Positions 2,522 through 24,036 of a stretch of 28,755 nt of DNA are shown here, in pieces. The notes beneath the pieces were generated by a model. It ran no database searches. It was given only the letters and a program-made list of their open reading frames with translations, and was not told the origin of the DNA. Position numbers and translations under genes: made by a program. The stretch comes from a virus, in IMG/VR virus record IMGVR_UViG_3300003690_000070, positions 1 through 28,755 of that record, one strand, 5' to 3'. The first letter of the stretch is position 1, and each line of letters opens with the position of its first letter.

Positions 2522-2574
2522 TTATAAATGCATGGTCGGGGATAGGATGCGCAATCTACGCCATCAAGCCCACG

Positions 2575-2583
2575 TGCTACAAT
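2575..2583 (+). promoter_or_regulatory. extended -10 box TGCTACAAT
   Basis: TG-C-TACAAT ends at 2583, and seven bases on is the ATG at 2591. No -35 box is visible. If active it would give a leaderless mRNA for the 2591-2698 reading frame, which has no ribosome-binding site. Confidence 0.4.
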
Positions 2584-2590
2584 CCGCATC

Positions 2591-2698
2591 ATGGCCACCA
2601 CTGATAAACTCTCGCCTCTTCAAGAGCTCTTCGTTGATACCATACTTCCCGAAACTGAACACAGAGGTACGATATGCCTACTGATACCGTTGATCTAA
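2591..2698 (+). CDS. possible 35-aa leader peptide before the small terminase
   Basis: The frame begins MATTDKLSPLQELFVDTILP and ends ICLLIPLI at a TAA that overlaps the start of the small terminase gene by 25 bases. There is no Shine-Dalgarno sequence, but an extended -10 box is placed so that transcription would start at or next to the ATG. The start of the peptide resembles the opening of small-terminase proteins (LSPLQELFVD), so it could be a vestige of one or a coupling peptide. Coding status is uncertain. Confidence 0.35.
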   Translation: MATTDKLSPLQELFVDTILPETEHRGTICLLIPLI

Positions 2699-3198
2699 CT
2701 CCAGACCATAAGGCTGCTACGGATTGGGGAGCTACAGACGAAGAAGGTCCCCCTGAAGAGGTTGGCCCTCCCCTAGACAGTCTCAACACGCGGCAAAAGC
2801 GTAGCCTTGAGAAGCAACGTCTCTTCTTAGAGCACTTCGCAAAGTGCGGTACTGTTCTGCACGCGGCTGAAGGTGCTGGCCTAGAGCGCACCACGATCTA
2901 CTGGTGGGATACCCACGACCATCTAGGCTTCAAACAGCGTTGGGAGCAAGCACGCCATAGCTACCGGGAAGCCGCCGAGAAGCTGATGGACGAGCGCCTG
3001 ACTGATCCTACCGGCAACCGTGGATCAGACATCCTACTCATGTTCAAGCTTAAGGCTCTGTACCCTGAGAAGTACAAGGACGCCGTCGTGGTGACAGACG
3101 ATACCGCAAAGGATCTGCTGGATAGGCTCCGTCGTGGTGGGAAGGCGCGGAAGCCCACCGCCCCAGACGACGATAAGCGTAACAGCAACGATGGCTAG
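2674..3198 (+). CDS. terS: terminase small subunit-like HTH protein (174 aa)
   Basis: Small terminase subunits bind the packaging site on phage DNA and load the large subunit. The family pattern is clear: residues about 48-75 (RQKRSLEKQRLFLEHFAK) lead into an HTH-type segment VLHAAEGAGLERTTIYWW (about 61-79). This is followed by FKQRWEQARHSYREAAEKLM and the characteristic ILLMFKLKALYPEKYKD block (about 121-137). The N-terminal 45 residues are acidic and the C-terminus is charged and probably disordered. The length is normal for the family. It is the first substantial rightward gene; the large terminase lies 2 kb downstream, separated by small genes. A general HTH regulator is the alternative. 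Confidence 0.75.
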   Translation: MPTDTVDLTPDHKAATDWGATDEEGPPEEVGPPLDSLNTRQKRSLEKQRLFLEHFAKCGTVLHAAEGAGLERTTIYWWDTHDHLGFKQRWEQARHSYREAAEKLMDERLTDPTGNRGSDILLMFKLKALYPEKYKDAVVVTDDTAKDLLDRLRRGGKARKPTAPDDDKRNSNDG

Positions 3199-3292
3199 GC
3201 CCCCCCCGGTAGGGCTTAGGATGCCTGGAGAGCGTATAGATGCTACCCCTGACAGTTTGAGATCGGGTAAAGGGGTTTTCGTTGGCTGCTGA
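3191..3292 (+). CDS. micro-ORF A with a TPD...KGVF tail (33 aa)
   Basis: The ATG overlaps the stop of the small terminase gene (ATGGCTAG). The peptide starts MARPPPVGLRMPGERIDATP, and its tail TPDSLRSGKGVFVG resembles the tail TPDNSGCPKGIFFLG of the 3454-3567 frame. The two differ by in-frame changes and a three-base gap, as expected for coding DNA. In both cases the TTG start of a small Cys gene lies within the last codons. Function unknown; translation unproven. Confidence 0.35.
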   Translation: MARPPPVGLRMPGERIDATPDSLRSGKGVFVGC

Positions 3293-3562
3293 GAAGGTGT
3301 ACTGTCCTGGCAGTGGCCTTGCGCCTAGACTGGGGACATGGAATATCCCATCCACTCCGCGGAAGAACTCCCGTGCTATCTGCGCTGTGTGTCGTGGGGC
3401 TTTTACGGCAAATAAGCTAGAGGGAGTAATGTCAGGCCACTACGTTACGAAGGGTGATTCCTTCGGCGGTCGCATTGGGAAGGCGTATCATCACCTACGG
3501 TACGGAAGATGTCGAGCCTACCCCTGACAATTCAGGGTGCCCTAAAGGAATCTTCTTCCTTG
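3243..3562 (+). repeat. repeated junction CTACCCCTGACA ... TAAAGG ... TTGGCT
   Basis: The 12-base CTACCCCTGACA occurs at 3243-3254 and 3518-3529. Each copy is followed after about 20 bases by AAAGG and then by a TTGGCT that opens a small Cys gene (3282 and 3560). The spacing differs by one codon. This looks like duplication of a junction carrying the end of one micro-ORF plus the ribosome-binding site and start of the next gene. Confidence 0.5.
3282..3527 (+). CDS. small Cys-rich (zinc-finger-like) phage protein (81 aa)
   Basis: The start is a TTG with AAAGGGG six bases upstream. Residues 8-13 read CPGSGL and residues near 33-36 CAVC, followed by GVMSGHY. The order C, CxxC, H is that of the short zinc-binding proteins common in actinophages and related phages. 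It probably binds Zn2+ structurally; the partner is unknown. The last 25 residues are not typical and overlap another possible frame, so the true end could differ if a frameshift is present. Confidence 0.6.
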   Translation: MAAEKVYCPGSGLAPRLGTWNIPSTPRKNSRAICAVCRGAFTANKLEGVMSGHYVTKGDSFGGRIGKAYHHLRYGRCRAYP

Positions 3563-3567
3563 GCTAG
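3454..3567 (+). CDS. micro-ORF B, paralogous tail to micro-ORF A (37 aa)
   Basis: GTG start; the peptide reads MIPSAVALGRRIITYGTEDV then EPTPDNSGCPKGIFFLG. Its tail aligns with that of the 3191-3292 frame. It overlaps the end of the 3282-3527 gene in another frame, and no clear ribosome-binding site is present, so support comes mainly from the paralogous tail. Confidence 0.3.
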   Translation: MIPSAVALGRRIITYGTEDVEPTPDNSGCPKGIFFLG

Positions 3568-3703
3568 AGTGAGGCTGTGGCTCTGTCGGGTAGGCTTGCA
3601 CCGTCTGAGGCGGACGGTGAGGGTTTGGTCGGATGCGGGCGGGTCGTCGGTATTTTACGGGTGTACTCGCGTTGGGTGTCGGAGGTATCGGCTTGAAGGC
3701 TGA
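3560..3703 (+). CDS. small basic Cys/His phage protein (47 aa)
   Basis: The TTG at 3560 is preferred to an ATG at 3509 because TAAAGG lies ten bases upstream and the arrangement copies that at 3282. The protein reads MARVRLWLCRVGLHRLRRT and ends VFYGCTRVGCRRYRLEG. The LCRxGLHR opening and Cys-Arg-rich end are typical of small zinc-binding phage and actinobacterial proteins, although the last pair is CxxxxC rather than CxxC. Role unknown. Confidence 0.5.
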   Translation: MARVRLWLCRVGLHRLRRTVRVWSDAGGSSVFYGCTRVGCRRYRLEG

Positions 3704-3878
3704 GTGCGTCCACTTCTGGGAGGTGGAGCCGCCGAGCGGTACGGATTCGCTGGGGGTGTGTCGGCTGTGTGGTGAGGAGCGGAGGTTCCCGAACGTGGAC
3801 AAGGGGAACGGGAGGCCGTCGTCGTGGCGGCAGACGCGGAAGGCTTTGGACGTACTCGAAGTCAAGGTGAAGGCGTGA
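3693..3878 (+). CDS. small zinc-binding protein, CxH...CxxC type (61 aa)
   Basis: The TTG at 3693 is chosen because GGAGG lies seven bases upstream; an in-frame ATG at 3633 would overlap the previous gene far more. The protein begins MKAECVHFWEVEPPSG and continues GVCRLCGEERRFPN. The C-x-H and C-x2-C ligands plus the EPPSGTxSxGVCRLCGEExxFPN pattern match a widespread small family in phages and bacteria whose function is unknown. It starts 11 bases before the previous stop and ends in GCGTGA, which couples it to the next gene. Confidence 0.7.
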   Translation: MKAECVHFWEVEPPSGTDSLGVCRLCGEERRFPNVDKGNGRPSSWRQTRKALDVLEVKVKA

Positions 3879-4090
3879 AGATTCGTGAGTCTCAGGACAC
3901 GTTCAAGTACCATCTGAAGATAGGTGCGAAGGTAGTGCATCGTGGTATTTGCACTGACCTAATCCGCAGGCAGCTTGAACATCAGCCCACATGGTCGGGC
4001 AGTACAATCGTCCAGGTCGGGCGACGGACTACCCGATCAGCGGCTCTAAAGTGGGAACAGCTGGCAGGCAAGAGGTCGTACACAAGGTGA
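3875..4090 (+). CDS. small GIY-YIG-like domain protein (71 aa)
   Basis: The GTG overlaps the previous TGA (GTGA) with AAGGTGAAGG upstream. Residues from FKYHLKIGAKVVHRGICTDL through RRQLEHQ and IVQVGRRTT to ALKWEQ resemble small phage proteins with a GIY-YIG-like core, in which HxGITxDLxRRExEH replaces the usual motif. GIY-YIG domains are usually nucleases, but the short phage versions have no proven activity, and I cannot point to a complete catalytic set. It sits in the run of tiny genes after the small terminase. Confidence 0.55.
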   Translation: MKIRESQDTFKYHLKIGAKVVHRGICTDLIRRQLEHQPTWSGSTIVQVGRRTTRSAALKWEQLAGKRSYTR

Positions 4091-4413
4091 GCGATCTACC
4101 CAAGGGCTTCCGGTATCAGGGCTTCGATTGGAAGATCAAGGATGACGAAAACCGTCTATATGGCGAGAAGCGATACGGGACGACCGATTTCCAGGCATTG
4201 GTAGTTTCTCTTACAGAGGCACACGCCTGGCCTCATGTGGCCGTCACGATGTTGCACGAGCTAATGCACGTGATAGACGCTGGGAACGACGCTGAAAGCT
4301 TTACCACGGAGGACTTTATCGGCTTGTTCTCACGTGGCCTCTATGCCGTGCTGACCGACAATCCCGAGCTGCGGGACTTCATCTGGCCAGAGGAGGACGA
4401 GGCGGAGGCGTGA
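4087..4413 (+). CDS. putative zinc metallopeptidase-like protein, HELMH motif (108 aa)
   Basis: The GTG at 4087 overlaps the previous TGA. The HExxH zinc motif is HELMH at residues 57-61, in the helix VAVTMLHELMHVIDAG. A conserved-looking block follows, FTTEDFIGLFSRGLYAVLTD, with acidic residues that could provide the third ligand. The layout (strand, HExxH helix, short C-terminal helices) matches small phage and ImmA/IrrE- or SprT-like metallopeptidases. The substrate is unknown; virion maturation or cleavage of a host regulator are possibilities by inference only. It is coupled to the next gene by GTGA. Confidence 0.65.
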   Translation: MSDLPKGFRYQGFDWKIKDDENRLYGEKRYGTTDFQALVVSLTEAHAWPHVAVTMLHELMHVIDAGNDAESFTTEDFIGLFSRGLYAVLTDNPELRDFIWPEEDEAEA

Positions 4414-4676
4414 GGAAGATACTGCCCAATATGTGTCCGTGTTCCCGGGCAAAGATCAAGGCTATCCCAATACGCGTGGGACAATCTGCTAGCTCAGGGG
4501 TGACCCACTGGTGGTGGCCCCGGGAAGGGATCGAACGTTCGCTATGTACTGGTCAGCCCAGGACTTATTCTTCCGCTATCATCTCGTTAGAGGAACACTG
4601 TCGGGAATGCCAGGAACTTTATATCTCTGATATTGTTCTCGGCGGAGGGAGCCGTTTGCTAGCCTCTATGGTATGA
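4410..4676 (+). CDS. small Cys/His (zinc-binding-like) phage protein (88 aa)
   Basis: The GTG overlaps the TGA of the metallopeptidase-like gene, with GGAGG just upstream. The central part reads GVTHWWWPREGIERSLCTGQ and then EEHCRECQEL. The order H, C, then HCxxC is the pattern of short zinc-binding phage proteins. The first 30 residues, including CPCSRAK, are basic. The final part runs into a region rich in promoter-like repeats. Function unknown. Confidence 0.55.
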   Translation: MRKILPNMCPCSRAKIKAIPIRVGQSASSGVTHWWWPREGIERSLCTGQPRTYSSAIISLEEHCRECQELYISDIVLGGGSRLLASMV

Positions 4677-4908
4677 TCTCGTCTGGCCTCCTTAGCCTTG
4701 TGATAGACTTGGTCTCGCCAGGGAGCCCGTCCGTTGTTTCGGGAGCGTGGGAGCGGGGTTAGCGGGCTCCCTGGCTCTGTGATAGGATAGGCTCGCAGGG
4801 CCTCCTGGGTAGCTTCTCTCCAGTCTCCGCCCGGTAGTCCCTGCGTTATGGTGGGGGCTGGCCGGCTAGACACCATTGGCCCCCTCTGCTATCTCTCCGT
4901 GGTATAAT
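4669..4908 (+). promoter_or_regulatory. array of four extended -10-like boxes in a gene-free stretch
   Basis: Nine-base boxes of the form TGN-TAnnnT occur at 4669-4677 (TGGTATGAT), 4701-4709 (TGATAGACT), 4780-4788 (TGATAGGAT) and 4900-4908 (TGGTATAAT). Each is preceded by a CTCT/CTTG-like base run, and three are followed by GGTCTCG/GGCTCG-type sequence. The last is a perfect extended -10; convincing -35 boxes are absent. They lie just ahead of the DUF3008-like gene and the large terminase, so they may be tandem promoters or promoter duplications. I see no convincing gene from 4677 to 4985. Confidence 0.5.
4717..4775. repeat. 13-bp perfect inverted repeat
   Basis: GCCAGGGAGCCCG at 4717-4729 pairs perfectly with CGGGCTCCCTGGC at 4763-4775 around a 33-base G-rich loop. 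It lies between the second and third extended -10 boxes, so it could be an operator, an RNA switch or a DNA-packaging signal near the terminase. Confidence 0.6.
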
Positions 4909-4950
4909 TGGTATGTCCTATGCACAGTGGTAGAGAGGTCTCTCACGATG

Positions 4951-4980
4951 GCCCCTGCTTTACGCGGGGGCTTTCGTGTT
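4951..4980 (+). terminator. intrinsic terminator-like hairpin upstream of the large terminase
   Basis: GCCCCTGC (4951-4958) pairs with GCGGGGGC (4964-4971) around TTTAC, with one U-G pair, and is followed by TTTCGTGTT. With the extended -10 box at 4900-4908 it delimits a transcript of about 60 bases. That RNA would also include GAGAG-GT-CTCTC at 4933-4944. Confidence 0.55.
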
Positions 4981-4985
4981 CTAAG

Positions 4986-5090
4986 ATGGCGGATGTAGTG
5001 GCGGCTACGAAATGCACTGGTGCGCTGTACCCTGTGCTATACCAGAGTGATCCGCTCTGGCGATTCGTCTGGTGGGGGACGGTGAGATGA
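4986..5090 (+). CDS. possible 34-aa peptide before the DUF3008-like gene
   Basis: An ATG just after the terminator-like hairpin opens MADVVAATKCTGALYPVLYQ, ending WRFVWWGTVR at a TGA that overlaps the next ATG. No clear ribosome-binding site is present. The stop/start overlap suggests translational coupling, but the peptide is not recognised and may not be real. Confidence 0.3.
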   Translation: MADVVAATKCTGALYPVLYQSDPLWRFVWWGTVR

Positions 5091-17196: not shown

Positions 17197-18069
17197 ATGG
17201 TACAGTCAGCGACTACCGGAAATCTAGCCAACGCCCAGAGGATCATGATTGCGGCCACGCGATTCACGGAGGAGCATAACGCGCCTGCGATGGCCCTGAC
17301 GGAGCAGTTCACCCTGAAGAGGGGCGATAAGCAGGTGACGGTGCCCAAGGTCGGCCAGATGACCATTGTGGACCTGGTCGATGGACAGGACATCACCGAC
17401 AACGAAGACATCGGCATGACCACGATTGACTTAACCGCTGCCGAGGTCGGGGCCAAGGTCGTCTTGACCGACAAGCTGGTCAGGCAGTCGGTTCCGAACG
17501 TCTTCTCCCTCGTGGGCAGACAGCTCGGTGACGGGATGGCCCGTAAGAAGGATACCGATGTCCTTGCCCTGTACACCAACCTGAACGGTGGGGTCACTCT
17601 GGGACTGGCAAGCAAGCCGCTATCGTCCATCAACCTGACCGGCTGTATCTCCTTCGCCAAGGCTAACAAGTTCGGCAGCAAGATATACGCCATCCACCAC
17701 CCCAACGCCGTGGCGGGGTTCGTCAAGAGCGCTGCGGTTGCGCCGGGTGCTACCTACCCTGTGCCGCTCGGATATGCCCAGGACTTGCTGAAGAACTTCT
17801 TCGTTGGTCTCCGACCGTTGAACGGGGTTCCGCTGTTTGAGGACGGCAACATCAGCGAAGACGGGGCTGGCGATGGGATTGGGGCCATTGCGGACCAGGG
17901 CGCGCTGGCGACTCTCACGTCGGTCAAGATGAATACCGAACGGCAGCGTGACGCTTCCCTGCGTGGCACCGAGGTCGTGATGACTTCCGACTACGGAGTG
18001 TTCGAGCTGGACGACACGAAGGGCGCGCCGATGACCTACGATGTCAGCGCCGTGATCACCAGCAACTAG
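17197..18069 (+). CDS. major capsid protein (290 aa)
   Basis: AAGGAGCC lies six bases before the ATG, a strong site suited to a highly expressed gene. The sequence has the features of HK97-fold capsids of marine and environmental phages: an N-terminal helical arm, then TIVDLVDGQDITDNEDIGMT and VVLTDKLVRQSVPNVFSLVG. Further on come GDGMARKKDTDVLALYTNL, IYAIHHPNAVAGFVKSAAV and a final EVVMTSDYGVFELDD strand. Length is typical. It directly follows the scaffold. A more exact family assignment (P22-like or N4 gp56-like) cannot be made by eye. Confidence 0.82.
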   Translation: MVQSATTGNLANAQRIMIAATRFTEEHNAPAMALTEQFTLKRGDKQVTVPKVGQMTIVDLVDGQDITDNEDIGMTTIDLTAAEVGAKVVLTDKLVRQSVPNVFSLVGRQLGDGMARKKDTDVLALYTNLNGGVTLGLASKPLSSINLTGCISFAKANKFGSKIYAIHHPNAVAGFVKSAAVAPGATYPVPLGYAQDLLKNFFVGLRPLNGVPLFEDGNISEDGAGDGIGAIADQGALATLTSVKMNTERQRDASLRGTEVVMTSDYGVFELDDTKGAPMTYDVSAVITSN

Positions 18070-18547: not shown

Positions 18548-18675
18548 GTAGCGTAGCCCACGAGGGCGCCAAAACCGCATGGCTGTAACGATTGGCCGAG
18601 GTCGTGCGGGGCAACACTATCGGCTGGTCGCAGGGCGCAGGCCCTGTAAAACGTAGCCTTGAAAGGGGTTTAGAA

Positions 18676-19425
18676 ATGTCATTTCCAGATTACGTAACGG
18701 GACTGGCTGGGTGGGAAAAGCAGACTACCTCTGGCAAAAAGCACCCTCTAGGTACGAAGATGCTTATAAGAGATAGGGCTTTTAGGTATGTAGAAGCTGC
18801 TGGCACAGAGATAGGCGAAGGTCTTTTGGTGGGTCAGCAAGCCGCTGTGACTACACAGGATGATGACCTTGCCGTAGCTACTACCGCTTCTGCTGGAGCA
18901 ACTAGTGTTTCTATCACCATTGGCGGTACTAATGCACTAGAGAAGAATGAGTACCAAGATGGGTACATCTTCAATAATACTGCTGCTGGCACAGCGGCTT
19001 TGATGTACAGAATTAAGTCACATCTTGCAGCCGATGCAAGTGCAAATGTAACCATCAACCTTGATGAGCCAGATGGGCTTGTAAACGCATATACAGCAGG
19101 AACAGACGTTGTAGGGTTGATAGGAAGCCCTTGGAAAGATATTGTTGTGGCTCCAACAACCACGCTAGGTATGACTGTTGGTTTAACTTGCAACACCATT
19201 CCCGCAAGTTACTACGGCTGGGTTCAAACAGTAGGGCCAGCGCTAGCATTGGTAGATGCTGCTGCTGGTACAGCGGTTGGAAGTGCGCTGATGACTGGTA
19301 CGAACCATGTAGGTCAGATGGAACTTTTGACCTATGAAGACGAGGCTTACCGAGCCGTAGCCACGCTAGGTAGCTTGGCTGCTGTAGACAACGAGTACGC
19401 CTTTGTACAGCTTTGCATAGAGTAG
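18676..19425 (+). CDS. capsid decoration-type structural protein, AT-richer copy (249 aa)
   Basis: The ATG at 18676 has AAAGGGG seven bases upstream; an in-frame TTG at 18592 would add 28 residues of non-native look. The protein opens MSFPDYVTGLAGWEKQTTSG and has KHPLGTKMLIRDRAFRYVEA. A beta-rich Ala/Thr body follows (SVSITIGGTNALEKNEYQDG, then NVTINLDEPDGLVNAYTAG), ending AAVDNEYAFVQLCIE. The order matches phage virion proteins placed after the capsid gene (decoration or head-surface). Codon use is clearly more AT-rich than in the capsid gene. A decayed relative lies directly downstream. Confidence 0.65.
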   Translation: MSFPDYVTGLAGWEKQTTSGKKHPLGTKMLIRDRAFRYVEAAGTEIGEGLLVGQQAAVTTQDDDLAVATTASAGATSVSITIGGTNALEKNEYQDGYIFNNTAAGTAALMYRIKSHLAADASANVTINLDEPDGLVNAYTAGTDVVGLIGSPWKDIVVAPTTTLGMTVGLTCNTIPASYYGWVQTVGPALALVDAAAGTAVGSALMTGTNHVGQMELLTYEDEAYRAVATLGSLAAVDNEYAFVQLCIE

Positions 19426-19438
19426 CGGCAACTGAACT

Positions 19439-20210
19439 GCCGAGAAGAAGCTCAGCACGAGCAAGCAGCGGAAGCTCGGCACACGAGGCGTCACCCCCGA
19501 CGGGCGTGTGTTCTGGTATTCCAGGGCTGGCGGGACGGCGCTGGCTAACGGCGTGTGCGTCTGCGCGAAGGCCCAGGAAGGGACGAACCAGCACGCCACT
19601 GCGCTGCTTCCGTCAACCGTTATCGGTGACTGGAGCGCCACTGCCCCATCGCCCGGTATCCCGATTGGCTCGGCCACCATCGGTGTCATCTGGGTGACGA
19701 ACCACTCTTCGGCGGAGTATGTAGATGGATACATGACCATCGAAACTTCGCCAGGGATGGGCACCTATCGGGTAGTGTCCGACCCTGATTCGGGCGACTC
19801 GTCAACTGCGACCACGATACGGCTGCACCCCGACGACACCATCACTCAGGAAGTGCTCACCACGGTGACCAGGTTCGGCTTCCACGCCAACCCGCATTCC
19901 TCAATGATAATCGTGCCCGCCACGGCTGAAGCTGCGGCGCTGACAGGGGTGGTTCTGGGCGTGACTTAGGTGGAAGTGCCGCTGGACAACTACTTCTGGC
20001 TTCAGTCCTCGGGGATCGCCCACGTGCGGTACGACGATCTGATAGCCGCCCTGATCGGGCACACGGTCATCAGCGGCCCTGGTAACCACCGGTGCGATCA
20101 CCACCCTATCCCAGCTCACCCTTGGCTCGTTCCCGGTGATGGGATACGCAATGAGCGCCATCCCCGCCGACGGCAAGTTCATGAAGGTAATGTTGACGCT
20201 TAGGAACTAA
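19439..20210 (+). pseudogene. decayed second copy of the decoration-type protein
   Basis: The frame AEKKLSTSKQRKLGTRGV then TPDGRVFWYSRAGGTALANG corresponds to the N-terminal part of the neighbouring decoration-type protein (KKHPLGTKMLIRDRAFRYVE). It has three defects. No start codon exists between the upstream TGA at 19433 and GTG 19508, which is too far inside. An in-frame TAG interrupts it at 19967-19969, after which the same frame continues EVPLDNYFWLQSSGIAHV. A +1 shift near 20075 is needed to reach the natural end ALVTTGAITTLSQLTLGSF...MLTLRN before TAA at 20208. It is GC-rich like the rest of the genome. Sequencing errors could explain single defects but not all three easily. Confidence 0.65.
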
Positions 20211-20241: not shown

Positions 20242-20490
20242 ATGGCTTTCAAGCAAGAGCGTCCTGGCGTCTGGTACAACAGGGCCGCACAGGGCGGCGA
20301 CATCTTCAAGGTTGTCCGACCACCGCAGGGGACTGGCCTATTGGCGGCCCCTCGGTACGCCATAGATGAACCGATAATCGAACCCGACGACATGGACCCG
20401 TTGCCTATCAAGATGCCCAACGCCGAGCAGGTGGCTGCGTTGCTGACGGACGTGCGGACCGTCGAGGAAGAGGCGTCCTTTGTCGATTAA
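20242..20490 (+). CDS. small phage protein of unknown function (82 aa)
   Basis: The start is fixed by AAAGGGG within the preceding hairpin. The sequence MAFKQERPGVWYNRAAQGGD, then FKVVRPPQGTGLLAAPRYAI, is followed by an acidic end (PDDMDPLPIKMPNAEQVAAL). I do not recognise it. It overlaps the start of the SAF-domain gene by 11 bases, which suggests coupled expression with the accessory cassette. Confidence 0.6.
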   Translation: MAFKQERPGVWYNRAAQGGDIFKVVRPPQGTGLLAAPRYAIDEPIIEPDDMDPLPIKMPNAEQVAALLTDVRTVEEEASFVD

Positions 20491-21094
20491 GAAACCCCTT
20501 GCGTTCTTCTTCGGCAAATATCGGTTCGCCTGGATTGATATGGCTAGGAGTCCGTTTATCATTGAGGTTGGGTTCGGCATCCCTAGAATAGTTCGGGTCG
20601 AGTTCCATTGGCTCCGTAAGGGAGCTACCGCACCCCGCAGAGTCAGGGTAGGCATACTTGGCCGTTGGAGCCGACGAAACGAAGAGGGGTGGCCTCTGAT
20701 TTACCTATGGGATTTGTGGTGGGTTGACTGGCATATTCTCGGCCCTGCTCCTTTTTGTGTATCTGGGCATTTTATTCAGGACTGGATGCACCTTGGATTT
20801 ATCCAGAACGTACGCTGGCGGTTAAACGGTGCGCATCGGAGGCGACATGAAGCAGCAAGACTCCTGGCGGCGTCCTACACCCTGGAGCGGCAGAAGAAGC
20901 TCGTCTGGGCCAAGACTGTTATCGCAGGCGATAGGCTAACTCGTGAACATTTTGCCATTCTCTCGCCAGGCGATGGTATTGCACCGTGGCAGATGGATAG
21001 ACTCATAGGTGGCAAAGCTGTTTGCGACTCTCAGGCAAACATGGATGTGACCTGGGAGGCTGTCATGACTAACCGAGAGGTGGTTCATGCCTAA
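20480..21094 (+). CDS. protein with a C-terminal NeuB-type SAF domain (204 aa)
   Basis: The TTG start has a purine-rich AGGAAGAGG upstream. Residues about 138-197 form a SAF (antifreeze-like) domain: VWAKTVIAGDRLTREHFAIL, then SPGDGIAPWQMDRLIGGKAV. The PGxGIxP motif is the signature of the C-terminal substrate-closing domain of sialic, legionaminic and pseudaminic acid synthases. The catalytic TIM barrel of those enzymes is absent. The N-terminal 130 residues are Trp/Arg/Phe-rich and unrecognised. It overlaps the cytidylyltransferase gene by eight bases, so a linked role in nonulosonic-acid chemistry is likely, but its activity is unknown. Confidence 0.7.
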   Translation: MSIKKPLAFFFGKYRFAWIDMARSPFIIEVGFGIPRIVRVEFHWLRKGATAPRRVRVGILGRWSRRNEEGWPLIYLWDLWWVDWHILGPAPFCVSGHFIQDWMHLGFIQNVRWRLNGAHRRRHEAARLLAASYTLERQKKLVWAKTVIAGDRLTREHFAILSPGDGIAPWQMDRLIGGKAVCDSQANMDVTWEAVMTNREVVHA

Positions 21095-21857
21095 CCCGTC
21101 GATAGTCGCGCTGATACCGGCCCGTGCGGAGAGCAAAAGGGTGCCTGGCAAGAACACGCGCCTGCTGGGCGGGCACCCCCTGCTGGCCTGGAGCATCGCC
21201 ACGGCGCGGGAGAGTGGGATATTCGGGGAGATCGTGGTTTCTACCGAGTCGGCAGAGATTGCTGACATGGCAGAGCGTTATGGCGCTTACACCATTGAGC
21301 GGCCAGCCGCGTTTGCAACTGACACCTCCCCGGATATTGAGTGGGTAAGGCACGCTATGGCGACTGTAGACTACGCGGCCTTCGCCATCCTGCGGCCTAC
21401 CAGCCCGTTCAGGACGGCAGAGACGATACGGTTTGCTTGGACGATGTTGCAGGGGGATACGGCTCATGCGGATTCGATCCGTGCTGTCGAGAAGTGCGGC
21501 CAGCATCCGTACAAGATGTGGACGGTTAACAAGCAGCGAGATCGAATAATTCCGCTGCATCCTGCCGCGCGTGGCGAACACCCCTGGCACTCCAGCCAGT
21601 ACCAGGCGCTGCCGGAGATATACGTCCAGAACAGTAGCCTGGAGATAGCCTGGACGCGGGTGCTGGACGGCGACCAGGCCCAAGCGGGCAACATCGTCAT
21701 GCCCTTCTTCACGGATGGCTACGAAGGGCTGGCCATCGACTACCCCCGCGACTTCGAGTACGCCGAGTTATTGCTGTCTCAGGGGAAAGTGACGTTGCCG
21801 CAACTGCTTGCTGGGCATAAAAAGCCCGTTGAGATACCCCATTACAACGAAGCCTAG
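21087..21857 (+). CDS. CMP-nonulosonate (N-acylneuraminate-type) cytidylyltransferase (256 aa)
   Basis: The enzyme joins CTP and a nonulosonic acid (sialic, legionaminic or pseudaminic type) to give the CMP-sugar donor. The nucleotide-binding start IPARAESKRVPGKNTRLLGG (residues 10-29) then HPLLAWSI is diagnostic. VVSTESAEIADMAERYGA and ILRPTSPFRTAETI follow in family order, as does the C-terminal YEGLAIDYPRDFEYAELLL with the metal-site Asp region. Length is close to the usual 225-235 plus a short tail. The exact sugar cannot be told. It lies between the SAF-domain gene and a transferase-like gene. Confidence 0.88.
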   Translation: MPNPSIVALIPARAESKRVPGKNTRLLGGHPLLAWSIATARESGIFGEIVVSTESAEIADMAERYGAYTIERPAAFATDTSPDIEWVRHAMATVDYAAFAILRPTSPFRTAETIRFAWTMLQGDTAHADSIRAVEKCGQHPYKMWTVNKQRDRIIPLHPAARGEHPWHSSQYQALPEIYVQNSSLEIAWTRVLDGDQAQAGNIVMPFFTDGYEGLAIDYPRDFEYAELLLSQGKVTLPQLLAGHKKPVEIPHYNEA

Positions 21858-21880
21858 TACAGGGAAGGGGTGGCTACGAT

Positions 21881-22480
21881 ATGACTCGTAAAGTCTGCCT
21901 CCTTGGCTTTGCCGGGCCGTCGAACCGCTGGGCTAACAGCCTTGACTCGGACGTTGAGGTGTGGGCTATGAATATGTGTCACAGGTTCCTGCTCCCAGGC
22001 AAGGCGAGTCGCTGGTTTCAGATGCATCATCGGATGCACAACGCCGAGAACGGCGAACCGCCAGGGCACTTCGGCAGGCCGCTGGACCACGACGAGTTCC
22101 TTCAGAGCGCTGCCATTCCGGTCTACATGCAGGAAGTGGACCCGCTGATACCGACCAGCGTGCGATACCCCCTGGAGGCTATCACGGCGCACTGGAGGCC
22201 TTATTTCACCAGCACCCTGCCCTACATGATCGCCCTGGCCCTACACGAGGGCGTGGACGAGCTGGGGCTGCTGGGCATCTACCTCAACACGTCCGTTGAG
22301 TACAGGGACCACCGCCCGTGTGTGGAATACTGGCTGGGCGTGGCTGAGGGCCTGGGCGTGTCGGTCCTACTGCCGGAGGACTGTGACTTGGTGGAGTCCC
22401 CGCTGTACGGGTATAATCTGACAGATCAGGTGGACCCTGCGGCAGGGCTGACGCTGAAATCGGTCGAGGTAGTGGGATGA
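21881..22480 (+). CDS. DUF115/GT42-like phage protein, candidate glycosyltransferase (199 aa)
   Basis: GGGGTGG precedes the ATG. The N-terminus VCLLGFAGPSNRWANS has a Rossmann-like loop, followed by EVWAMNMCHRFLLPGKASRW and FQMHHRMHN. The block FTSTLPYMIALALHEGVDEL, then GLLGIYLN, resembles the motif region of DUF115 (MptE-like) and GT42 sialyltransferase-type proteins, where TSG-x-YM-x-A-x-AxxxG precedes IxLxGID. Here the second part is GIYLN rather than GID. Position after the cytidylyltransferase supports a transferase that uses the CMP-sugar. Many phages carry this protein alone, without known function. Confidence 0.55.
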   Translation: MTRKVCLLGFAGPSNRWANSLDSDVEVWAMNMCHRFLLPGKASRWFQMHHRMHNAENGEPPGHFGRPLDHDEFLQSAAIPVYMQEVDPLIPTSVRYPLEAITAHWRPYFTSTLPYMIALALHEGVDELGLLGIYLNTSVEYRDHRPCVEYWLGVAEGLGVSVLLPEDCDLVESPLYGYNLTDQVDPAAGLTLKSVEVVG

Positions 22481-22734
22481 ACAGGAACGGCCATGCTCCC
22501 GTGACGACCGAGGCGGTGCTGTTGAAGTCGGCGGTGGACGCTGACCTCGACTGCTGGGGCAAGATGGTCGAGGGGATGCAGGAGCAGGCTCGTCAACTTG
22601 TGCCCGGCGTCCTGGTCGGGAAAGAGGTAAAGAGCCGTCTCTGTCTCAGTTGCAGTGTCGAGCGGCACGGTCGAGCGCTCGTTGTCTTCCCCGACGAGCA
22701 TTATCACCTGAGTTTGGACGTGATCGGTGTCTGA
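22477..22734 (+). CDS. small phage protein of unknown function (85 aa)
   Basis: The ATG overlaps the previous stop (ATGA). It reads MNRNGHAPVTTEAVLLKSAV and DLDCWGKMVEGMQEQARQLV, later RLCLSCSVERHGRALVVFPD. A CxxC occurs but no second pair. Not recognised. It is coupled to the accessory cassette on one side and to the 124-aa gene on the other. Confidence 0.55.
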   Translation: MNRNGHAPVTTEAVLLKSAVDADLDCWGKMVEGMQEQARQLVPGVLVGKEVKSRLCLSCSVERHGRALVVFPDEHYHLSLDVIGV

Positions 22735-23101
22735 GCAAGACCTAAACGGCTACCTTTGGACGCCCGACAACATGGCCCACACGGCGGTTGACGACATCGT
22801 GGTGCGGCAACAGAACGAGGTGGCCACGGCGGTTACCTTTGCCTTTGAGTTCCACTACAAGGGGAAGGCGCATAAGGTTCAGGTGGTGGCCGAGTCGGAC
22901 GTGTCGCGGGCTCAGGTGGAGGATAGCGCGGCCAAGGTCGCTGAGAAGTGGATGCGGGAGATTGACGAGAAGGAGAGCAAGCGGCCTCCGACGGAAGACG
23001 AGAGAAAGCAGATCGGCAAGTCGATGAACGAGTTTCTGCAACACGCCAGGAGGCGGCGGCAGTCGAGCAACGGAAGGCTATTTTATCCGGGGGTGCATTG
23101 A
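22727..23101 (+). CDS. charged phage protein of unknown function (124 aa)
   Basis: GTG start, overlapping the previous gene by eight bases. The middle (TAVTFAFEFHYKGKAHKVQV) suggests beta strands. The C-terminal half is strongly charged and helical (AAKVAEKWMREIDEKESKRP), with an Arg-rich end ARRRRQSSNG. Function not recognised. Its TGA overlaps the ATG of the beta-helix gene. Confidence 0.55.
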   Translation: MSEQDLNGYLWTPDNMAHTAVDDIVVRQQNEVATAVTFAFEFHYKGKAHKVQVVAESDVSRAQVEDSAAKVAEKWMREIDEKESKRPPTEDERKQIGKSMNEFLQHARRRRQSSNGRLFYPGVH

Positions 23102-24036
23102 TGGTAATCCCGCAGCTATTCGTCAAAGTTGTTTCCTCTGGGGAGCAGCTTCAGGTAAAAGGCATTAATGAAGCCTTCGACGGCGTTGTGGATGTCGGCG
23201 GGTCCGGCACATTTGAGACCATTCAAGCTGCCGATGACGCGTTGGACTCAGGGGCTTACGCCCTGTGGGTGAAGACGGGCACCTATTCCGCTGGCTTCAC
23301 GGTCTCTACTAACAACGCCTACATCTTCGTGGAGCCAGGGACGGTAATCGAAGCTGCCATCACCCTGTCTGGGAACAACATCACGCTTGTTCTGGGTGCT
23401 GGCTGCGATATACAAGGAATCATTACCTTATCAGGGGCCAACTGCTCTCTGACCTGCCAAAACGGTGTGGATACTGATGGATTGGTCATGTCCGGAGCCT
23501 TTGGTTTCCATGACGGGGGTGGCTGGGAGACGATCCATCAGGGAGGGACAGCCAATGATGCCATCGCTATATCGGGTACGGACTGTGTCGTGCAGCACTG
23601 TGCCGCTCAAACCACGACGGGCGGCGGGAACAGCTTTGAAGGGGTGGCTTACTCAGCGGCCCGCATCTCCATAATAGCGGTCAAGGTAATCGACTCAGAC
23701 AACGAGGGTATCCAAGGACAGCCGGGAGGTAATGATATCTATATTGCTGGCTGTGTGATTCTAGGTGCTGATGGCAACGGCATGACTATACAAGGGGCCA
23801 GGGCCAGGGTTATCGGCAACTACATTATCGCTGCTGGGGCTGACGGTATCAATCTAGCGGCTAGCGCGGACGATTCGACCGTTATTGGGAACATTGTCCG
23901 CGATCAGGGTGCCCAGCCGATTGACATAGACGTTAACGGAGAAAACTGTGTGGTGGTTGGTAATCGCGTTGACGGCGCGGTCTCTGATAACTCGGGAACA
24001 TCAACTGTGGCGTCCAACGACGAGACAGCCTTCTAG
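23101..24036 (+). CDS. right-handed beta-helix protein, tail spike or receptor-binding candidate (311 aa)
   Basis: The ATG at 23101 overlaps the previous TGA. Sequence of the pectate-lyase-like fold: a start with FETIQAADDALDSGAYALWV and KTGTYSAGFTV, then repeating strands of about 22 residues with G-N/D-N turns. Examples are ITLSGNNITLVLGAGCDIQG, YIAGCVILGADGNGMTIQGA and NIVRDQGAQPIDIDVNGENC. Phage proteins of this type bind or cleave surface polysaccharide. No obvious catalytic acid cluster can be assigned. It follows the nonulosonic-acid cassette, so both may concern the host surface. Confidence 0.75.
   Translation: MVIPQLFVKVVSSGEQLQVKGINEAFDGVVDVGGSGTFETIQAADDALDSGAYALWVKTGTYSAGFTVSTNNAYIFVEPGTVIEAAITLSGNNITLVLGAGCDIQGIITLSGANCSLTCQNGVDTDGLVMSGAFGFHDGGGWETIHQGGTANDAIAISGTDCVVQHCAAQTTTGGGNSFEGVAYSAARISIIAVKVIDSDNEGIQGQPGGNDIYIAGCVILGADGNGMTIQGARARVIGNYIIAAGADGINLAASADDSTVIGNIVRDQGAQPIDIDVNGENCVVVGNRVDGAVSDNSGTSTVASNDETAF

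Follow-up and report, generated by a model that had tools for sequence, protein, structure and literature searches.

A probable degenerated copy of a phage-encoded nonulosonic-acid cassette

The stretch of DNA analysed here (the window: a whole IMG/VR virus record of 28,755 bases) probably bears a nonulosonic-acid cassette, encoded by the phage and now degenerated, a reading to which a probability of about two in three is assigned. The gene content is that of a phage: terminase, an LPD38 protein and capsid come first, and p158, p277, the cassette and other genes of the same strand come after them. The major capsid protein (17197-18069; PF25209, E 2.5e-7; 76-80% identity in contigs L002 and L003) anchors the cassette in the structural block. 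The next landmark, p277 (18592-19425), has relatives in sister contigs that are 36-44% identical and lie in the same place; its position suggests a capsid decoration protein. The three open reading frames singled out by a first-pass annotation, at 20480-21094, 21087-21857 and 21881-22480, are present as it gave them; they are referred to below as the SAF ORF, the cytidylyltransferase and T3. They are followed by p85 (22477-22734; 85 amino acids, no relatives among the loci fetched) and by p124 (22727-23101), a small protein that is conserved with the cassette, occurs in most syntenic cassettes and is 33% identical in L009-L012. Directly after p124 comes a beta-helix protein (23098-24036; PF13229); in L002 its slot is filled by an unrelated protein of 538 amino acids, as though a host-contact protein were being exchanged here. 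The nearest isolates found are Pelagibacter phages HTVC112P/026P/111P/202P and phage DSL-LC06, whose capsid proteins are ~30% identical to that of the window; HTVC112P and DSL-LC06, the two isolates inspected, have no annotated cassette gene after the capsid.

The intact form of the cassette is found in sister contigs. A search of viral contigs with the SAF protein returned L002 and L003, where the match falls on the C-terminus of a full-length NeuB of 368 amino acids (PF03102, E 2.5e-69), followed by the cytidylyltransferase (62% identical to that of the window), T3 (60%) and p124 (65%). In L002 the coordinates are 2566-3672 for NeuB, 3665-4468 for the cytidylyltransferase and 4465-5082 for T3. 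Full-length NeuB is present in at least 11 contigs of the lineage, preceded by the putative decoration gene and, as a rule, followed by the CMP-sugar synthetase; the same placement is seen in L008, L009-L012, L017, L049, L103, L104 and L107. L007, L100 and L105 are partial contigs of the lineage, and L144 stops just past the start of NeuB. L008 and L049 have NeuB and no cytidylyltransferase in their contigs. Among the lineage contigs the barrel is lost in the window alone; none of the sisters lacks it. The catalytic motifs of the sister NeuB proteins are conserved, and the L002 protein, which has the PF03102 barrel plus the SAF domain, scores under the NCBIfam equivalog cut-offs. An FkbM methyltransferase is frequent in the intact sister cassettes; no NeuC-type epimerase was found in the cassettes of the lineage. 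All counts of relatives are lower bounds, because several scans were built on a handful of short patterns, and they may omit records very close to the window.

The enzymology of NeuB, NeuA/PseF and GT42 proteins (synthesis, activation and transfer) is established. In the intact sisters the NeuB-type synthase would condense a hexosamine-like precursor with phosphoenolpyruvate, the neighbouring cytidylyltransferase would turn the product into a CMP-sugar, and the GT42-like protein would transfer the sugar from it. The precursor is probably supplied by the host, since the lineage's cassettes are without a NeuC-type epimerase. It is perhaps not ManNAc, for which the Neisseria meningitidis enzyme NmNeuB needs an arginine of its SAF domain (PMC6795526): the position equivalent to that Arg314 is Ser in the window and L002 and Cys in L008, L049, L011 and L017 (Arg in L013 and L015). 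Because the block lies on one strand between the capsid and decoration genes and downstream genes shared with the sisters, its position makes a virion surface protein the likeliest acceptor; expression would presumably be late. That the target is instead the envelope of the host, either LPS/O-antigen or capsule, for instance so as to block superinfection, is rather unlikely. Phage glycosyltransferases have been proposed to alter host O-chains (PMC7029224), and T3 and the cytidylyltransferase are found in many unrelated phages; the cassettes nevertheless sit inside head/packaging blocks, adjoining capsid or terminase and portal genes, and neither a membrane gene nor a flippase gene was recognised among their members.

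The cassette genes are neighbours in many other phages, and the rarity of such adjacency that would have told against a system was not observed. When 80 T3 loci were picked by T3 alone for a neighbourhood count, most had none of the tested sugar genes. Six outside the lineage had a cytidylyltransferase, within about 0.5 kb and on the same strand in L026, L033, L036, L037 and L047, and far away in L039. L037 carries NeuB as well, and in L026 a Gfo/Idh/MocA oxidoreductase gene comes next, followed by the beginning of one for a DegT aminotransferase. L158, one of two loci in bacterial genomes, combines T3 and another T3-like ORF with a cytidylyltransferase. Two unrelated phage contigs, L114 (506-8056) and L117 (69-7397), encode, in this order, TerL, NeuB, an SDR protein, cytidylyltransferase, transketolase, T3 and an FkbM-type methyltransferase, with portal next in L117. 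A different phage, L013 (7477-10743), encodes a GT29-type sialyltransferase-like protein, NeuB, UDP-GlcNAc 2-epimerase and cytidylyltransferase, a nearly complete sialic-acid pathway. Two further arrangements were observed. In L111 (404-6762) a NeuB-SDR-cytidylyltransferase block with a HAD phosphatase directly follows the large terminase gene. In L134-L138 and L140-L143 (e.g., L138, 4468-5702) a short cytidylyltransferase precedes a ~235-aa NeuB barrel without SAF, the mirror image of the SAF remnant in the window. Among 50,697 phage records these queries found no isolate phage with the cassette; the matches were two uncultured records with NeuB-like stretches and one mislabelled contig, FPLJ01000048.1, whose 'phage' CMP-sialic acid synthetase belongs to a Moritella viscosa capsule locus (NeuA, NeuB, NeuC and wzz-type genes).

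T3 (21881-22480) is, at moderate strength, a GT42-like putative CMP-sugar transferase. An AlphaFold model built on an alignment of 62 family members (pLDDT 90.7, pTM 0.87) was searched with Foldseek, and the 15 best PDB matches are all CstI or CstII (best E 6.6e-5, TM 0.51); a family HMM retrieved GT42 enzymes alone at E up to 0.02 (GT42 match E 8e-4). The 199-aa protein is thus predicted to have the transferase-like fold that the first-pass annotation supposed. Half of its 'DUF115/GT42-like' label holds; the other half does not, for PF01973 (DUF115/MptE-like) has no match in the window protein and matches one of the 62 members at E 0.02. PF06002 likewise has no match in the window T3, and matches six of the 62 weakly (best E 0.0086); in PHROGs neither the three cassette proteins nor the T3 family has a match. 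Near-invariant residues include Gly9, Trp28, Phe46, His49, Pro97, Gly132 and Glu140. The family belongs essentially to viruses: of 147 candidate stretches in IMG/VR, 124 were confirmed, one member was found among isolate phages, and a search of 84,980 bacterial and archaeal genomes with a 7-row alignment gave two loci. One phage contig (L092, 6204-8654) has four T3-family genes in tandem. The catalytic base of CstII is His188 (PMC4202792); in a hand alignment of the 62 members its equivalent is His144 in the window and L002, whereas 49 members have Gln and 11 have Glu, and T3 is on this account called GT42-like and not a GT42 member. It is unlikely, if less so than the readings of the window taken up below, that T3 is some other Rossmann-type nucleotide-binding protein and not a glycosyltransferase. 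The superposition on CstI/CstII (TM-score ~0.5 only, 7 Å rmsd), the Gln or Glu in 60 of 62 members and the T3 loci devoid of tested sugar genes speak for such a protein; the uniformity of the best PDB matches, an independent sequence profile that ranks GT42 first and the repeated adjacency to a cytidylyltransferase in unrelated phages speak for a transferase.

In the window itself, the synthase is reduced to its tail. The last ~74 residues of the SAF ORF (20870-21094) are the C-terminal SAF domain of phage NeuB. Residues 138-187 match TIGR03569 positions 277-326 of 329 (E 4e-4), and over its final ~62 residues the ORF shares 56-58% identity with the C-terminal ends of the full-length phage NeuB proteins in L002 and L100, which bears out the SAF resemblance first noticed. 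Homology to NeuB begins sharply at 'ASYT-ERQKKLVWAK' (window 20870), where the L100 counterpart reads 'ASYTTERQKKLVWA'; the break falls at the barrel/SAF boundary. The PF03102 TIM barrel, with its metal and PEP site, has no Pfam match in the ORF, and a full sister NeuB compared with the window by tblastn aligns along the C-terminal stretch alone, confirming for this contig that the catalytic barrel is missing. When plasmids were searched with the entire SAF protein, the C-terminus of pseI was the sole match. The SAF domains of L002 and L100 are 62% identical to each other, so that the window domain is nearly as close to either as they are to one another; either the truncation is recent or the SAF domain still matters. 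Being no more diverged than those of the intact sisters, the domain is no ancient relic, and selection could still act on it.

The neighbourhood upstream of this remnant is also broken. A second p277-type gene (19439-20207) is without a start, is interrupted by a stop at 19967-19969, shifts frame near 20070 and matches p277 of L049 in two frames (54% over 217 and 47% over 49 positions). It is followed by p82 (20242-20490), the C-terminal remnant of an upstream GT42-like paralogue, T3A: it matches the last part of T3A in L049 (39% over 61 positions, E 1e-10). In L049, L008, L017 and L107, T3A lies upstream of the methyltransferase and NeuB, and the p277, T3A and NeuB fragments of the window stand in the same order as in this intact version. 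With a broken second p277 and a scrap of T3A in ancestral order, the region at 19.4-20.9 kb looks collapsed by deletion. The NeuB barrel, any methyltransferase and the body of the first transferase paralogue would have gone by deletion or recombination, so that the SAF end now follows an unrelated open frame of 130 residues. Searches of viral contigs, phage isolates and bacterial genomes gave no relative of that frame, a Trp-rich stretch (~130 residues, 20480-20869) that reads in frame into the SAF part. Its coding score of 0.017 is borderline and lies at the lower margin of what real genes score (0.225 +/- 0.108 for true-gene segments, against -0.158 +/- 0.154 for wrong-frame ones). Methyltransferase debris was considered as its source and rejected: no methyltransferase match lies inside it, the sole weak one falling in the p82 region.

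An assembly artefact joining variants at 19.4-20.9 kb, with an intact NeuB in the real phage, is improbable. In its favour, there is a single contig, p277 is doubled with a stop and a frameshift at that very spot, and the flanking genes on both sides come from the same lineage; against it, the Trp-rich stretch matches nothing, which a mere splice of known sister sequences would not give, and several fragments in ancestral order fit stepwise deletion. In NeuB dimers the SAF domain caps the active site of the partner subunit. A new functional protein, with a real Trp-rich domain and a SAF part that binds sugar or docks on another NeuB to modulate or complete the host enzyme, is more improbable still: its frame is open over 204 codons, its SAF is as conserved as in intact sisters and its break lies at a domain boundary, but no second stand-alone SAF or like fusion was found among the fetched relatives, the neighbouring genes are broken, the catalytic SAF arginine of NmNeuB is Ser or Cys in the clade, and the AlphaFold model (pLDDT 35) was discarded. 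Most likely, then, the 'stand-alone' SAF is the tail end of a NeuB left after loss of the catalytic part. The gene is full-length in every complete syntenic relative, which does not bear out the free SAF domain as a natural unit, and a truncated NeuB beside other gene fragments, with the arginine replaced across the clade, is a poor candidate for a designed sugar-binding or NeuB-modulating part.

The cytidylyltransferase (21087-21857) had been taken for a CMP-sugar synthase, and that identity stands, with an enzyme of the CMP-nonulosonate type: the PF02348 fold (E 1.1e-17) and N-terminal nucleotide-binding motif are present, the best NCBIfam match is PseF (TIGR03584, E 2e-29, under the cut-off), and the nearest solved structure is the N. 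meningitidis CMP-Neu5Ac synthetase. Its metal motif reads GLAID where the sisters have GFDIN. The Mg-binding Asp209-equivalent, kept as Asp in 34 of 36 aligned enzymes, is Ala in the window; the second position (Asp211) is Asp in the window and Asn in most sisters. In the N. meningitidis enzyme, D209A leaves activity too low for kinetics and D211A lowers kcat 15,000-fold (PMC2901514). To judge by these residues the window enzyme may be impaired; with an Asp retained in second place, where the sisters mostly have Asn, it is not called dead and may still work.

Having lost the barrel and the paralogue body, the window phage would either be without synthesis of the sugar or depend on sugar made by the host, and its copy may make no active sugar at all. 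The proposal of a nonulosonate system thus fits the relatives with an intact cassette and is doubtful for the window copy. More broadly, and tentatively, with somewhat less than an even chance, several unrelated phage groups may coat virion proteins with sialic-acid-like sugars by means of their own synthesis and activation and of a so far undescribed, virus-specific family of GT42-fold transferases whose catalytic signature is different, the window lineage being one that is losing the cassette. Phage-encoded glycosylation is already known; the literature searched (mostly open-access, no preprints, and so weak evidence of novelty) held no description of a phage cassette for making and attaching a nonulosonate. 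Should the intact cassettes prove functional, acidic, sialic-acid-like sugars displayed by phages could affect adsorption, stability or recognition; a likely role as CMP-sugar transferases would fall to a large phage protein family so far unannotated, and the window would exemplify the loss of such a cassette.

Comparison with known systems places the phage proteins near, and apart from, their bacterial counterparts. With the NeuB/PseI/LegI synthases the sister-phage proteins share the PF03102 barrel, conserved catalytic motifs and SAF domain; they differ in the Ser or Cys of the clade at the Arg314-equivalent and in scores under the NCBIfam cut-offs for N-acetylneuraminate and pseudaminate synthases, and the window ORF differs in having no barrel. 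The window cytidylyltransferase shares PF02348 and the ARxxSxRxxxKN and RPTSPFRT motifs with NeuA/PseF, whose usual D-I-D is A-I-D in the window and D-I-N in the sisters. Campylobacter jejuni CstI/CstII (GT42) are the best fold and profile match for T3, which departs from them in its TM of ~0.5, in the usual Gln or Glu at the His188 position and in belonging to a phage-specific family. Bacterial capsule/LPS sialic-acid loci, such as NeuA-NeuB-NeuC of Moritella viscosa, have the same adjacency of NeuB and NeuA, whereas the phage genes lie in a structural context, without NeuC in the lineage and with the GT42-like T3 and an FkbM methyltransferase instead. Work by Kandiba and colleagues is said to place a legionaminic acid glycan, made by the host, on a virus spike protein. 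The archaeal-derived N-glycan with legionaminic acid, as PMC10866085 describes it in citing Kandiba et al. 2012, is a precedent for a nonulosonate in a virus-related glycan, the virus there being an archaeal one.
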